This document shows, piece by piece, positions 13,431-20,539 of a stretch of DNA of 64,000 bases (the first letter of the stretch is position 1; each line of letters starts with the position of its first letter). Made by a program: the position numbers and the translations under genes. A model generated the notes under the pieces. That model did no database searches. It was not told where the DNA came from and saw nothing but the letters and a program-made list of their open reading frames with translations. Origin of the DNA: an uncultured Desulfobacteraceae bacterium (GTDB lineage Bacteria > Desulfobacterota > Desulfobacteria > Desulfobacterales > UBA5852); contig CAJXSL010000007.1 of NCBI GenBank assembly GCA_913060875.1, positions 202,769 through 266,768 on the forward strand. Reading direction: 5' to 3'.

Positions 13431-13766
13431 TTGGAAAACTTCTGCCATGGCGCCGGCCAGGAAAGCGGCCGACGGGCGGGAACGGAAAATGTGGCCTTGA
13501 TCGTTGGTTTGGGGAAGGCCTGCGCCCTGGCCGCTCGCGACCTTGCACGCAACGATGCCCACATGCGCCGGATGCGGGATCATCTGTATGAGGGCTTGCA
13601 GGCCGGGTTGGAAAATATGCACCTGAACGGCCATTCGGAAAAGCGGCTGCCCAACACGCTTAGCGTGTCCTTCCCGGGAATCGCCGCCGACCGCCTGCTG
13701 GCCACCATCGGCGACACCGTCGCGGCCTCGGCGGGGCGGACGGGAACAAGCGCGCGGACTGTCTGA
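13431..13766 (+). pseudogene. cysteine desulfurase (IscS/NifS-like) remnant
   Basis: The frame reads HGAGQESGRRAGTENV near the start and continues with IVGLGKAC, a helical segment, LPNTLSVSFPGI and DTVAASAG. This is the C-terminal-middle part of a class V aminotransferase fold cysteine desulfurase. The N-terminal two-thirds, with the PLP lysine, and the catalytic cysteine loop that should follow AASAG are both absent; the frame ends in unrelated RTGTSARTV. Only a TTG start is available. It is best read as a degraded fragment. Confidence 0.7.
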
Positions 13767-13784
13767 GCCCGCCGAAAGGCGGGC
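13767..13784. terminator. GAAA-capped hairpin after the desulfurase remnant
   Basis: GCCCGCC, a GAAA loop and GGCGGGC form a perfect 7-bp stem immediately after the remnant's stop. There is no U-tract, so terminator function is uncertain. Confidence 0.45.
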
Positions 13785-15836: not shown

Positions 15837-16172
15837 GTGGTATCGCAAGAAGAACGGCGAAACGCGATCCGGCACCCCAGGCTGGAAAACTACCGCGTGG
15901 AAATCAAGCTCGTGGGTCAGCCGATCTACCAGTTCCGGGTCACGGATGTATCCACCAAAGGCGCCGGCCTGCTGATCAGCAGGGACTCCGCATTTTTAAA
16001 GCTGATCGAAGTGGGGCAGGAACTGGACGTCAATTTCATTTCGCCCCAGGGCTTCCAACCCGCAGGCCTGCACAAAGCGGAAATCCGGCACATCACCGAC
16101 AACAGCCACAACAAATACCGCGGCGCCCTGCTGGTGGGCATTCAGATCAGGGAGTGCCTGGAAACCTCCTGA
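15837..16172 (+). CDS. PilZ-domain protein (c-di-GMP receptor)
   Basis: This 111-residue protein is essentially one PilZ domain. RRNAIRHPR near the N-terminus corresponds to the RxxxR c-di-GMP-binding motif, and VTDVSTKGAGLLIS corresponds to D/NxSxxG. It probably reads c-di-GMP and passes the signal to a partner that is not evident here. The frame is open from GTG 15819, overlapping the DUF169 gene, but GTG 15837 has AAGGA at normal spacing and was preferred. Confidence 0.8.
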   Translation: MVSQEERRNAIRHPRLENYRVEIKLVGQPIYQFRVTDVSTKGAGLLISRDSAFLKLIEVGQELDVNFISPQGFQPAGLHKAEIRHITDNSHNKYRGALLVGIQIRECLETS

Positions 16173-16704
16173 CGGCATTCCGATAGCTTCCCGCCGGGGA
16201 TTCACGCAAACCGCATGTGCAACTGCATCGGCGACAGGCCCTAAATCAAGCGCCGACACGCTGATTTTTCCCTTCCATTATTTTATAGTATATGCTTATT
16301 AATTCGGCATGTCTGCCAACCCGAATATTTCATGAAATTTTTTCTACACAAAAATTTTTATGCAATAAATCAAACCCATAAGCGTTATTCGGGGTATGAT
16401 TTTCCCGTGACAGTTTGTAATCTGCGTCGTTTTCCAGGAACGCAGAAAAAATTTCACCCTGCGGGCGCGTCCGAGATGTCCATTGGCTGCGTTATCAGGG
16501 GCTTGCGGTAGCAGAAGTACAGCGGCGCCCCTGATGCCTTGCCCATGAACATCTCGAAGGCGTGAAATATCCGGGCAAAGGCCGTCCAAGAAACGTCCAA
16601 TCTGCCTGAATCAATAAAAAAACGACAATATGCCGCATCATCGGCAGCCAGTGATTGTTTTGAGGGGGACACAGGATCAACCTTAAAAGCGAAAGGGGGT
16701 TGTT
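16173..16704. other. non-coding region upstream of the selenium cluster
   Basis: This 532-bp gap holds the 257-bp repeat described separately and an AT-rich stretch (16261-16310). No gene is supported. A minus-strand frame of 325 residues crosses it but runs antisense to the peroxiredoxin. The promoter for the selenoprotein cluster must lie here, probably in 16577-16690, but no clear hexamers were seen. Confidence 0.5.
16318..16574. repeat. 257-bp palindrome-ended repeat, copy A
   Basis: The ends AACCCGAATATTTCATG and GAAATATCCGG are imperfect inverted repeats. Inside, CGAGATG/CATCTCG and ATCAGGGGC/GCCCCTGAT nest as further stems, so the right half can fold into a branched hairpin. A second copy lies at 57235-57490; the last 120 bp differ at about ten positions by eye, while the left halves are more diverged. 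There is no transposase, which fits a non-autonomous MITE-like element. Confidence 0.8.
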
Positions 16705-17430
16705 ATGCCAGAAGAGGTAGATGTTGGTTGTGCCAGACCGACCGGAGGGCCGGTTGGTGAAACTGTACCTGAAGAGGACGAGCCTATCGTGGAAGCCATT
16801 TACAGCAAGGAGGAAACGACCATGATTCAAGTGGGAAAAAAAGTGCCTGATTTTACGGCACCGGGATATCATCAGGGCAAATTCATGTCGACGACCTTGT
16901 CGGAGTACCTTGGCAAGTGGGTACTGCTGTGCTTTTACCCGGGTGACTTCACATTTGTATGAGCAACCGAAATTTCGGCAGTTGCCGAAAAATATGCCGA
17001 GTTTGAAAAACTGGGCGTCCAGATTCTCTCCATGAGCATCGACAGCGTTTTTGTCCATAAAATGTGGGATGATCACGAGCTCTCGAAAATGGTCAAAGGC
17101 GGTGTCCCCTTCCCCATGCTGTCCGATGCCGGCGGCAAGGTCGGCAAAATCTACGGTGTATACGATGACGATGCCGGGGTCGAAACCCGCGGCCGTTTCA
17201 TTATCGATCCCGACGGTGTTCTGCAGGGCTACGAAGTGCTGACACCGCCCGTGGGACGCAATGTCATGGAAAGCATCCGCCAGGTGCAAGCCTTTCAACT
17301 GATCAGGGAAAGCCAGGGCAAGGAAGCGACCCCGTCCGGGTGGAAACCCGGGAAAAAGACGCTCAACCCCGGGCCGGATCTGGTAGGCAAAGTCTGGGAG
17401 GTCTGGAAAACGGACATGGCCTTCGACTGA
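16705..17430 (+). CDS. selenocysteine-containing peroxiredoxin
   Basis: This AhpC/Prx-family peroxidase is interrupted by one in-frame TGA at 16960-16962. The TGA falls exactly at the peroxidatic cysteine: FYPGDFTFV-U-ATE corresponds to FYPxDFTFVCPTE. Strong homology resumes in the same frame (LGVQILSMSIDSVFVHKMW; RGRFIIDPDGVLQGY). The usual C-terminal resolving Cys (VCPxxWKPG) is replaced by ATPSGWKPG, so the enzyme would be of the 1-Sec type. GTG-free ATG 16705 gives a 39-residue acidic extension (DVGCARPTGGPVGE) with a GGGGG site; ATG 16822 has AAGGAGG and is the alternative start. Confidence 0.9.
16963..16985 (+). promoter_or_regulatory. candidate bacterial SECIS hairpin, peroxiredoxin
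   Basis: GCAAC (16963-16967) pairs with GTTGC (16981-16985) directly after the UGA, enclosing the self-complementary CGAAATTTCG. A stem-loop immediately 3' of the UGA is what bacterial SelB requires to insert selenocysteine. Confidence 0.6.
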
Positions 17431-17625
17431 TGCAGCCCCCACGCATTCAAAGGTGAAACACGCCAAGACCATGCTGGGGTATCAAGCCGTTTGTCGCTTC
17501 CACTTGCCACAATAAACATGATATCCCGGCATCTTTTAAAATTCAGGCCCCTTCCGCAGGCCGGAATGTTTTGGCAACGGAACGGTTTACCCTACCCCAA
17601 AAATTCCAACCGGAGGGAACACCCC

Positions 17626-18459
17626 ATGCGCTGGAAACAATTCTTCACACCGGCAGAATCGATGCCTGCCACGGAAGCCAAAACCTTCATGGCGGAGAAA
17701 TCCCAGGATGAATTCAACCTGGTCGATGTTCGCCAACCCAAGGAATACGAAGCCCACCACATACCCGGCTCCAAACTGATTCCCATTGCCGACCTGGACA
17801 AACGGCTCGACGAAATCGATCCTTCCAAGCCGACACTCGTATATTGAGCGGTTGGCGGGAGGAGCCGTGTCGCTGCTCAAATGCTTTCAGGCAAGGGGTT
17901 TGACAATGTGATCAATATGGCCGGCGGCATCAAGGCCTGGGACGGCCACATCGCCGTCGGCGGCGAAGATCTGGGCCTCGAATTGCTGACCGGTGAGGAA
18001 TCCATCGAAGAGACGCTCGTGGCCGCCTACTCGCTCGAGGCCGGGCTGCGCGACTTCTACCTGTCGATGATCGCCAAAGTGCCGCAAGCGGATGTCAAAA
18101 GCCTTTTTCAAAAACTCTCCGACATCGAAACATTGCACCAGAACCGCATCTTCGATGAATATCTTCAGGTTTCCGGGAACACCCTGAGCCGCGAAGACTT
18201 TGACAAAAATTTGGTCGTGAGCGCCGTAGAGGGCGGGCTGACCACCGATGAATATATCCGGATGTTTCAGCCGGACATGGAATCGGCCGTGGATGTCATC
18301 TCCCTTGCCATGTCGATCGAAGCCCAGGCCCTGGATATGTATACCCGCGCCTCGGAACGCAGTACCGATGCACGCAGCAAAGAGGCCTTGCAGCGAATCG
18401 CGGAAGAAGAGCGCGGCCATCTGGAACAGCTCGGCAAACTCATGGATAAGAGGGTCTAA
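17626..18459 (+). CDS. selenocysteine-containing rhodanese fused to a ferritin-like diiron domain
   Basis: The N-terminal domain (residues about 10-115) is a rhodanese: NLVDVRQPKEYEAHHIPGS, then TLVY-U-AVGGRSRVAAQ, then NMAGGIKAW. An in-frame TGA (17845-17847, codon 74) replaces the catalytic cysteine of the CxxGxRS loop. The frame continues unchanged into a four-helix ferritin/rubrerythrin-like domain (residues about 125-275) with helix ligands SLEAGL, IETLH (ExxH), SIEAQA and EERGH (ExxH), a complete diiron set. The start follows CGGAGGG. It sits 195 bp after the Sec peroxiredoxin and two bases before a flavoprotein. Sulfur- or selenium-transfer linked to peroxide reduction is inferred. Confidence 0.85.
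17848..17873 (+). promoter_or_regulatory. candidate bacterial SECIS hairpin, rhodanese
   Basis: Directly after the UGA, GCG (17848-17850) can pair with CGC (17871-17873), and GGC (17854-17856) with GCC (17864-17866), leaving a G-rich apical loop GGGAGGA. The stem is short and has an internal loop, but its position is right for SelB. Confidence 0.5.
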
Positions 18460-18461
18460 CA

Positions 18462-19574
18462 ATGGGGAAACATCTGGTCCTTATCGGCGGCGGCCATGCC
18501 CACATGGTCACGCTGGCCAAGCTGCATACCTTTATTGAGAAGGGGCACCGGGTCACCGTTATCGGCCCTTCCGACCATCACTATTATTCCGGTATGGGGC
18601 CGGGCATGCTCGGGAAGACTTACACCCCGGCCGACATCCGGTTCAGGACCCGGCATGTGGTGGAAAAACAGGGGGGAACGTTTATCTGCGATAAGGCGAC
18701 CAAAATTATCGCCGCTGAAAAACAGGTGGTTCTGGCCTCCGGGGAGAAAGTTGGCTACGATATCATTTCCTTTAATGCCGGCAGTTATGTCCCCCGCCTT
18801 GACCTTGCCGAGGATGCCCAGGACGTCTATTCGGTGAAACCCATTGAAAGGCTGATGGAAGCCCAGGCCCGCATTCTGGCACTGGCGGCCCGAAAAAAAA
18901 TCACCATCGGCATCCTGGGCGGCGGCCCCTCTTCCGCTGAAGTGGCCGGCAATATCTGGCAGCTGACACAAAATGCCCAGGGGCACCGGCCGGCCATCAA
19001 AATCTTCGCCGGCAAGCGGTTTATGTCACGCTTCCCGGGCAAGGTTTCTGCCAAAATAAAAAGAATCCTTACCCAGCGGGGTGTCGCCATCAACACGGAC
19101 GGCTATGTGCAATCCGTTCAGTCAGGGGCGGTAACCCTTGCCTCCGGCGCTACGCATAATTTGGATTTCATCTTTCTGGCCATGGGGGTGAAGCCCAACC
19201 CCATCTTCCGAAACTCGGACCTGGCCACAGGGCCGGATGGCGGCCTGCGTGTCAACGAATGCCTTCAGAGTGTCGATCATCCGGAGATGTTCGGCGGCGG
19301 CGATTGCATCTATTTCGAAAAACAGCCCCTCGACAAGGTCGGCGTATATGCGGTCCGCCAGAATCCGGTGCTCTATCACAACCTCATGGCGGCCCTGGAA
19401 GACACACCGCTGCAGCCCTTCGATCCGGGCGGCGACTACCTGCTCATCTTCAATCTGGGGGGCGACAGTGGGGTTTTGCGCAAACGCTGGCTGCTGATGG
19501 ACGGCAAACTGGCGTTCAAGGTGAAAGATTATATCGACCGCAAATTCATGAAAGAATTCCAGGCCATCGAATAA
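18462..19574 (+). CDS. FAD/NAD(P)-dependent oxidoreductase like the NDH half of NDH-SelD fusions
   Basis: This 370-residue two-dinucleotide-fold flavoprotein has LVLIGGGHAHMVTL at the N-terminus for FAD, IGILGGGPSSAEVAG near residue 150 for NAD(P)H, and MFGGGDC near residue 283. The C-terminus KVKDYIDRKFMKEF resembles the end of the NADH-dehydrogenase-like module found fused to selenophosphate synthetase in some organisms, but no SelD domain follows. There is no catalytic CxxC. It starts two bases after the Sec-rhodanese, so they are co-translated. It is a plausible electron donor or sulfide/selenide oxidoreductase for the cluster. Confidence 0.85.
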   Translation: MGKHLVLIGGGHAHMVTLAKLHTFIEKGHRVTVIGPSDHHYYSGMGPGMLGKTYTPADIRFRTRHVVEKQGGTFICDKATKIIAAEKQVVLASGEKVGYDIISFNAGSYVPRLDLAEDAQDVYSVKPIERLMEAQARILALAARKKITIGILGGGPSSAEVAGNIWQLTQNAQGHRPAIKIFAGKRFMSRFPGKVSAKIKRILTQRGVAINTDGYVQSVQSGAVTLASGATHNLDFIFLAMGVKPNPIFRNSDLATGPDGGLRVNECLQSVDHPEMFGGGDCIYFEKQPLDKVGVYAVRQNPVLYHNLMAALEDTPLQPFDPGGDYLLIFNLGGDSGVLRKRWLLMDGKLAFKVKDYIDRKFMKEFQAIE

Positions 19575-19927
19575 TAAGCCTGTCCCAAATCAACACCAGG
19601 GCCGTCGAGGTTGGGACTTGCCGCCATTGGGCTTCGGGTTTTGGCAAGCCACCAAGGGCCACAATCCGCTGGTAAGCCGCTCGAAAAGACCAAACAATAA
19701 GTGGTCGCCGGTCCGGTACCACCGTCATGCCAGAATCCCCAGTGCCTGAAATTGTTTCATTTTTCGGAACCGGTCTCCCCGTGACTTGACATTTATTTGT
19801 AATAGATAAGGTTTAATGCAGGTCGGCAGGCATTCAATTTCACCGTTCGGTGACGCATTTGGCAGCCAACCCCTGAATCAAAGACTTAAAAATTATTGCT
19901 CCTCGCTTTGCAGAGGACGGAGGCACG
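19575..19927. other. non-coding region after the selenium cluster
   Basis: A GTCCCAA/TTGGGAC inverted repeat (about 19580-19617) follows the flavoprotein and may end its transcript. TTGACA at 19786-19791 precedes an AT-rich stretch but has no -10 at ideal spacing. No gene is supported in these 353 bp. Confidence 0.4.
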
Positions 19928-20539
19928 ATGCAACTTAGGCAAGGATTGCATACCTGTATGCTTGTTTTCCTCATCCTTCTGATGATGGGGCATCTCAGTG
20001 AAGCCCGGGCGGCGGATCCATCCTTCGACTGCGACAAGGCGGATGGCTCAATCGAGGAGCTGATCTGTCAGGATGAGCAATTGACCGCTCTGGATCGCCG
20101 GCTGGCCGAGGTCTACAGGGCTGCCGCTCGCAAAGCCGCCAATGAAAAGCCGCCCGTGCTCAAGGCCGAACAGCGCGGGTGGATCAAGGGGCGCAACGCA
20201 TGCTGGAAAAGCGACGATACCCGAAGCTGTGTTGAAACCGCCTATCGCCTGCGCATCGCCGAGTTGCAGGCCCGCTATCGCCTGGTGCCTGAAAAGGGCC
20301 CCTTCTGGTTCGCCTGCGACGGCAACCCAAGCAACGAGGTGGTCGTCACCTTTTTCGCGACCGAGCCGCCGACCCTGATCGCCGGGCGCGGCGATCAGGT
20401 GTCGTGGATGATTCAACAGCCCTCCGGCAGCGGCACCAGGTACCAGGGTCGCAACGAAACATTCTGGGAGCACCAGGGCGAAGCCACGATTGTGTGGGGC
20501 TACGATGCCCCGGAAATGCGCTGCGTGCGCAAACCTTAA
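19928..20539 (+). CDS. exported LprI/MliC-like double-domain lysozyme inhibitor candidate
   Basis: This 203-residue protein has a signal peptide (residues 1-29, ending SEARAADP). Residues 31-115 match the LprI-type fold: SFDCDKADGSIEELICQD, LDRRLAEVY, RGWIKGRNACW and a paired-Cys pattern. Residues 125-203 look like MliC (FACDGNPSNEVVVTFF; GTRYQGRNETFWEHQGEATI; MRCVRKP). Both families inhibit lysozymes in other bacteria. The fusion suggests defence of periplasmic peptidoglycan. GGAGG precedes the start. Domain assignment is by eye from spaced cysteines and motifs. Confidence 0.75.
   Translation: MQLRQGLHTCMLVFLILLMMGHLSEARAADPSFDCDKADGSIEELICQDEQLTALDRRLAEVYRAAARKAANEKPPVLKAEQRGWIKGRNACWKSDDTRSCVETAYRLRIAELQARYRLVPEKGPFWFACDGNPSNEVVVTFFATEPPTLIAGRGDQVSWMIQQPSGSGTRYQGRNETFWEHQGEATIVWGYDAPEMRCVRKP

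Follow-up and report, generated by a model that had tools for sequence, protein, structure and literature searches.

Selenoproteins in which selenocysteine (Sec) takes the catalytic place of a peroxiredoxin or of a rhodanese are already known as classes. The first is PrxU, whose enzyme from Eubacterium acidaminophilum was reportedly described by Sohling in 2001. The second is more varied: a 2026 table lists five forms of rhodanese-like selenoprotein, of which forms 2 and 4 carry the motif UxxG (PMC13188914), and Sec forms are also on record for 'Sulfurtransferase COG0607' (PMC2398784), for a 'sulfurtransferase homologous to a rhodanese-like protein' in 24 organisms (PMC5029168) and for a 'rhodanese-like domain' in a marine deltaproteobacterium (PMC8318568). 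The locus described here lies in a stretch of 64,000 nucleotides (the window) from an uncultured Desulfobacteraceae bacterium (assembly GCA_913060875.1, contig CAJXSL010000007.1, positions 202,769 to 266,768). Three successive genes on its plus strand encode (i) a Sec-containing PrxU, (ii) RhoRbr, a fusion of a rhodanese with a ferritin-like/rubrerythrin domain, and (iii) a flavoprotein. On the computational evidence prxU and RhoRbr are almost certainly genuine selenoprotein genes, while gene order and co-occurrence make it very probable that RhoRbr and the flavoprotein form a conserved two-gene redox module.

Among named species, Desulfosarcina widdelii (82%) and D. cetonica (81%) have the RhoRbr nearest to that of the window, and the host is therefore taken to be Desulfosarcina-like; its genome amounts to 5.88 Mb on 30 contigs, with a completeness of 99.7%. 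The original prediction, made from the letters of the DNA, saw a single in-frame UGA at the catalytic Cys of each of the first two genes, and each UGA is indeed the sole stop inside its frame, in the contexts FYPGDFTFV-U-ATEI (PrxU) and PTLVY-U-AVGGRS (RhoRbr). Its family calls were right: an AhpC-TSA/PrxU peroxiredoxin, a rhodanese joined to a rubrerythrin, and a pyridine-nucleotide oxidoreductase near TIGR03169 and thus akin to the NADH dehydrogenase (NDH) half of NDH-SelD fusions. The frame of prxU does begin at 16705, with an N-terminal extension that is conserved in relatives, and the stop of RhoRbr is followed after two bases by the flavoprotein start at 18462. The machinery for Sec, which the prediction proposed to look for, is complete in the genome as far as it named it: selA, a selB over the cut-off, a tRNA-Sec (selC) over the Rfam gathering score, and two selD genes over the cut-off with one in-frame TGA each.

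Homologues were expected to carry Cys or UGA at these codons and not random stops, and the orthologues of RhoRbr bear this out. Codon 74 is TGA, TGC or TGT in all 63 rows that cover it (the window included, and some records present twice), and never TAA or TAG. Another sample of the phylum, 297 genomes that include the host's own and may overlap the other sets, yielded 67 profile matches in 66 genomes; with stops counted wherever they fall in the match, 27 have one TGA, one has one TAG, none has TAA and 39 are stop-free. On the best tree of 52 rows, 25 with Sec and 27 with Cys, calculated from an alignment without column 74, 11 changes of state are needed, 7 of them forced by well-supported branches, against an average of 17.6 when the Sec and Cys labels are shuffled. 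Left out of this tree were the frameshifted, split or partial genes L100 (D. cetonica), L113, L068 and L069, together with L073 and the twice-present records.

Within the supported clade of the window, Sec is found in the window itself and in the three rows next to it, and Cys in D. widdelii; D. cetonica, outside the tree, carries UGA at codon 74. The simplest reading is a change from Sec to Cys in D. widdelii, its direction being given by parsimony only. Such changes are rare and documented mainly for FdhA and SelD (PMC13188914), with FrhD and HesB-like proteins also counted in a 2006 table (PMC1794560), and the RhoRbr of D. widdelii looks like a further case. Because it has Cys, it should fall outside the 38 known selenoprotein genes that the deep-Sep paper counts in that species (PMC12013277). 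The gene of D. cetonica JCM 12296 (L100:6001-6830) has in addition lost one base a few codons upstream of the UGA, which is either a draft error or a real frameshift.

The Sec codon of RhoRbr is accompanied by a hairpin resembling a selenocysteine insertion sequence (SECIS). Behind codon 74, 630 stems were scanned, with offsets counted from the first base of the codon; the 63 rows were reduced to 56 by dropping L112 (35% identity), the chimeric L115 and identical stretches. The best-paired stem in the Sec forms has five pairs (16-31) and the next, which contains it, has six (15-32), both around a 6-base loop. Of the cells of these six positions, 88.5% are paired in the 29 distinct Sec forms as against 63.0% in the 27 distinct Cys forms. 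The covariation score of the Sec forms is 0.170, compared with 0.079 in shuffles that ignore kinship and reached by none of 300 of them, whereas the Cys forms score 0.085 against 0.083, a value reached by 108 of 300. Among the rows of the tree, 22 of 25 Sec forms and 3 of 27 Cys forms keep at least five of the six pairs. When seven kinship-independent pairs of rows are compared, the hairpin goes with Sec in 5.7 on average, against it in none, and shows no difference in 1.3 (sign test, median p 0.031, range 0.031-0.063). The sequences of D. widdelii and D. cetonica, compared over 39 bases from codon 74 onwards, differ at two bases, one in the codon itself and the other a synonymous change that breaks one pair of the hairpin. 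In the window, five of the six pairs are formed and one position is a G-G mismatch.

For prxU, a seven-pair stem has 97% of cells paired in 27 distinct sequences, a set with no Cys forms to serve as control. One pair joining synonymous third-codon positions occurs as G-C in 16, A-T in 9 and T-A in 1, and is unpaired in 1. That the UGAs might be ordinary stops in decaying or split genes can scarcely be entertained beside these data: the RhoRbr of D. cetonica has its frameshift, but no sign of decay was found for the genes of the window, whereas codon 74 avoids the other two stops, homology continues in frame beyond the UGA, the RhoRbr hairpin covaries in the Sec forms only and the genome has the machinery for Sec.

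Set beside its described family, the PrxU of the window is an ordinary member. It scores above the curated cut-off, has Sec at the peroxidatic position and begins with an N-terminal extension (16705-16821, GCARPTGGPVGE), present in relatives and within the length of the model, ahead of the catalytic domain that starts at 16822. In 58 genomes, 25 of 27 PrxU matches (E <= 1e-40; window included) hold a TGA. Of the two others, one (G022) is a fragment whose start lies behind the codon, and the other (G057) is a second copy of 43% identity with Cys; it is with this Cys that the TGA of prxU aligns. One difference concerns the C-terminus: 13 of 14 readable loci have a stretch like KEATPSGW, without Cys, and one (G044) has KEVCPADW, the Cys of which occupies what we take to be the usual place of the resolving Cys. 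A GC..P motif occurs in the extension at all 14 readable loci (among L146-L170), and to judge from the sequences its Cys could be the resolving residue. One PrxU gene (L166, from G025) has an in-frame TAG near residue 20 besides its Sec UGA, where the other copies read are coding, mostly for Lys; it may stand for pyrrolysine, a sequencing error or decay.

In RhoRbr the rhodanese domain covers approximately residues 22-106 and the ferritin-like/rubrerythrin domain approximately residues 129-273, both with scores above the gathering cut-offs. Across the 52 sequences of the tree, position 74, G77, R79 and S80 of the rhodanese catalytic loop are invariant, and position 74 is the sole conserved Cys/Sec. 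E138, E168, E232, E262 and H265 are likewise invariant and H171 is nearly so, giving the pattern E138, E168xxH171, E232, E262xxH265, which from knowledge of the family is presumed to be a di-iron site. The likeness to rubrerythrin lies in this four-helix domain with its E, ExxH, E, ExxH pattern; the difference is that an N-terminal rhodanese stands in place of the rubredoxin domain found at the C-terminus of classical rubrerythrins, of which Pfam detects none in RhoRbr. With 28.2 bits against a cut-off of 115, the protein also falls below the NF041203 model of rhodanese-related (seleno)proteins. Its UAVG fits the UxxG of the tabulated forms 2 and 4, whose published representatives are MBM9537886.1 and MCY3690685.1, a comparison by motif only, so that identity with one of them is possible, and the three other records of Sec-rhodaneses could include RhoRbr as well.

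The predicted model of RhoRbr has a mean predicted local distance difference test score (pLDDT) of 90.2. Among the best 50 of 755 Foldseek rows, the matches are rhodaneses, including those of NADH-dependent persulfide reductase (Npsr), CoADR-RHD and persulfide dioxygenase fusions, and the Pyrococcus furiosus structure 2fzf, which matches the ferritin-like half; no structure in these rows covers both halves. A second rhodanese-rubrerythrin family, at 26-32% identity and with no in-frame stops, is common in the order: it is found in the genome of the host (C1:502784-503557) and in relatives (L041-L053), and in G012 it lies directly behind PrxU.

The flavoprotein (370 amino acids, one Pfam domain, of the pyridine-nucleotide oxidoreductase type) resembles the N-terminal half of NDH-SelD fusions. 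It matches the model TIGR03169 (Nterm_to_SelD) over its full length, at 252.9 bits, under the curated cut-off of 310, which none of 58 relatives reaches. It differs from the fusions in this score below the cut-off, in having no SelD domain in its chain and in adjoining RhoRbr. The predicted model (mean pLDDT 93.7) is matched in Foldseek by bacterial type II NADH dehydrogenases (NDH-2; TM-score 0.84-0.88 among the first 20 rows) and by sulfide:quinone oxidoreductases (SQR; 0.81-0.85). A frame of 784 amino acids in G035 had suggested a fusion involving the flavoprotein; this was rejected, as the frame ends with the flavoprotein.

Of 55 loci with room behind RhoRbr, 40 (24 of 29 Sec, 16 of 26 Cys) have a gene for this flavoprotein adjacent to it on the same strand, with gaps of 6-150 bases in 39 and of 273 in one. 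This count keeps split and partial genes and omits the window, L112, four duplicate records and one locus without room. Across the 58 genomes the flavoprotein, counted from 27 matches over 200 bits, accompanies RhoRbr in 14 of 17 genomes and is present in 13 of the 41 without RhoRbr (one-sided p = 0.0005); the 17 include two with partial or split genes (G042, G054), and the co-occurrence tests here and below are uncorrected for kinship. In a Desulfococcaceae genome (SF_100_bin68, L115:6001-6524) the first part of a RhoRbr gene passes directly into the last part of a flavoprotein gene, a junction that looks like a deletion scar in a second copy of the pair. A recurrent neighbour, TVP38-like by reading (cluster c4), occurs in eight loci.

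PrxU behaves differently. The original prediction proposed to look for a conserved gene order, and this holds for RhoRbr and the flavoprotein. As for PrxU, the window, D. widdelii and D. cetonica are the only ones of the examined RhoRbr loci in which it is a direct neighbour of RhoRbr. The prediction had gone on to propose a dedicated chain from flavoprotein to Sec-rhodanese to Sec-peroxiredoxin, and in its favour the three genes are adjacent in these Desulfosarcina-like loci, and 5 of 26 PrxU loci, window included, have some kind of rhodanese-domain gene no more than 1.5 kb away. The other four have the distant rhodanese-rubrerythrin paralogue (G012) or one kind of rhodanese (G003, G011, G047), which hints at a looser link between peroxide and sulfur. 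The proposal is nevertheless not supported by the wider comparison: PrxU is present in 8 of 17 genomes with RhoRbr and in 18 of 41 others (one-sided p = 0.53), D. widdelii has Cys in RhoRbr while its PrxU has UGA, and 195 bases separate prxU from RhoRbr in the window, so that the chain is now very improbable. Across 16200-20000 there are 5 promoter-like matches against 2.3 in shuffles and 9 terminator-like matches against 4.7; some of these fall in that gap, and they are neutral on whether the two genes share a transcript. As far as seen, PrxU is a separate peroxide reductase that is co-located with the module only in the Desulfosarcina lineage.

Table 1. Features of the locus, in positions of the window
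Feature	Position	Strand	Evidence
prxU, selenocysteine-containing peroxiredoxin	16705..17430	+	NCBIfam NF040737 (PrxU) 392.8 bits (curated cut-off 270); PF00578 126.3 bits
UGA of prxU read as Sec, codon 47 from Met 16822, peroxidatic position	16960..16962	+	
SECIS-like hairpin of prxU, 7 pairs, 4-nt loop	16973..16990	+	pairing in 27 distinct sequences
RhoRbr, rhodanese + ferritin-like/rubrerythrin fusion	17626..18459	+	PF00581 71.8 bits (gathering cut-off 22.2); PF02915 39.7 bits (gathering cut-off 22.8)
UGA of RhoRbr read as Sec, codon 74, rhodanese catalytic position	17845..17847	+	codon alternation, tree
SECIS-like hairpin of RhoRbr, 7 positions, 6-nt loop, ~18 nt after UGA	17859..17878	+	covariation
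Flavoprotein, type II NADH dehydrogenase fold, no SelD domain	18462..19574	+	TIGR03169 252.9 bits; Foldseek

Among the closest described systems are Npsr and CoADR-RHD (6pfz, 3nta, 3icr), in which an FAD-containing pyridine-nucleotide oxidoreductase works with a rhodanese domain. In Npsr a surface Cys of the rhodanese accepts the sulfur first, and bound CoA passes it to a Cys beside the FAD; the active-site Cys is Cys 42 in the A. fulgidus enzyme (PMC7969121). These enzymes are single chains with a C-terminal rhodanese; here there are two genes, and the rhodanese is fused to the presumed di-iron domain. By this analogy RhoRbr and the flavoprotein may be a split NAD(P)H sulfane-sulfur reductase, in effect an Npsr divided between two genes and extended by a rubrerythrin-like domain. 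Sec74 or Cys74 of the rhodanese would accept sulfane sulfur, donated by polysulfide, persulfide or thiosulfate, and carry it as a Se-S or S-S adduct, and the flavoprotein would reduce this adduct with NAD(P)H, directly or through a small thiol, to sulfide and free selenolate. The fused di-iron domain would reduce the O2 or peroxide that otherwise oxidises the selenolate, or drain electrons to them. The split-reductase reading draws on the rhodanese matches to Npsr, CoADR-RHD and persulfide dioxygenase fusions, on the NDH-2/SQR fold of the flavoprotein and on the full ligand pattern in RhoRbr.

Several results pull against this explanation. The best sequence match of the rhodanese half is the thiosulfate sulfurtransferase 1yt8 and its best fold match the beta-lactamase/rhodanese protein 3tp9. 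In 42 flavoprotein sequences there is no conserved Cys near the Npsr position, so that the active-site Cys of Npsr and CoADR-RHD is not matched, nor is there the catalytic Cys pair of SQR; the sole invariant Cys is C282, in GGGDC, which makes the route of electrons to the rhodanese adduct uncertain. The genome also holds a frame of 570 amino acids with both flavoprotein and rhodanese matches (C1:354430-355872), by its sequence apparently a one-chain protein like Npsr or CoADR-RHD. No flavoprotein gene directly follows RhoRbr in 15 of the 55 loci with room, and the 13 RhoRbr-free genomes noted above have the flavoprotein all the same. As to the hairpins, Rfam at permissive settings returned three chance matches and no SECIS in 16000-20000, and minimum-energy folds of 48-base stretches (z about -3.4 to +1.3) overlap between Sec and Cys forms; in place of such single-sequence energies, the analysis followed fixed pairs from one orthologue to the next. 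Taken whole and including the mechanism, the explanation preferred here (two Sec genes, a RhoRbr/flavoprotein sulfane-sulfur reductase and a separate PrxU) stands somewhat short of an even chance.

Two further explanations keep the module and give it another task. In the first, catalysis belongs chiefly to the di-iron domain, which would act as a rubrerythrin-like peroxidase or oxidase and be fed by the flavoprotein through Sec/Cys74 where classical forms use a rubredoxin. It would account for the conservation of the ligand pattern in 52 sequences and for the missing rubredoxin domain, and genes of oxidative-stress type near some loci would suit it, although this last signal is weak: such genes lie near 16 of 57 RhoRbr loci (608 kb) and near 1 of 49 control loci (177 kb), and the query genes were picked after the fact from the RhoRbr loci themselves. 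However, the catalytic loop of the rhodanese shows the same invariance as the presumed iron ligands, and what rhodanese loops usually carry is sulfur, not electrons; this explanation is unlikely.

In the second, the module handles selenium: RhoRbr would carry perselenide, the flavoprotein would reduce it and the selenide would pass to SelD, as the NDH half may do. The flavoprotein resembles TIGR03169, an NADH oxidoreductase has been suggested to reduce a selenium compound for SelD (PMC2432076), and rhodanese has been suggested to be able to bind selenium (PMC8538045). The distribution of selB gives some support, as it is found (E <= 1e-75) in 65 of 66 RhoRbr genomes and in 202 of 231 others (one-sided p = 0.004), and was over the cut-off in 15 of the 16 RhoRbr genomes of a first sample, the 16th having it in two pieces. 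Yet selB is present in 267 of the 297 genomes anyway and the test is uncorrected for kinship; G320, a genome with RhoRbr, yields no selB match at this threshold, a search of 57 RhoRbr loci turned up no SelD relative, RhoRbr and the nearer selD are some 31 kb apart in the host, and 27 of the 52 rows of the tree have Cys. Selenium delivery is a weaker rival of the sulfane-sulfur reductase, and a decidedly improbable one.

Elsewhere in the window, positions 13431-13770 (plus strand) encode what looks, from its motifs, like the C-terminal part of a cysteine desulfurase. The N-terminal part is absent and the sequence breaks off at the active-site region; it is probably a gene remnant.

Neither a rhodanese/ferritin-like selenoprotein nor its pairing with a flavoprotein was found in the published literature, searched mostly as open-access main texts, so that an earlier listing in a supplementary table is possible, and the 2026 review makes no mention of ferritin or rubrerythrin (PMC13188914). 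RhoRbr is likely a new architecture among bacterial selenoproteins. Its function can be proposed more tentatively: with the flavoprotein it may constitute an undescribed, selenium-optional NAD(P)H sulfane-sulfur (or perselenide) reductase of Desulfobacterota, with a di-iron guard against O2 or peroxide, that has switched between Sec and Cys about ten times with its hairpin changing in step, a composite that is possible but doubtful in all its parts together. Through the module, the flavoprotein half known from NDH-SelD fusions acquires a partner that can be tested. The orthologues of RhoRbr, 25 with Sec and 27 with Cys, are a natural series in which codon and hairpin are seen changing together.

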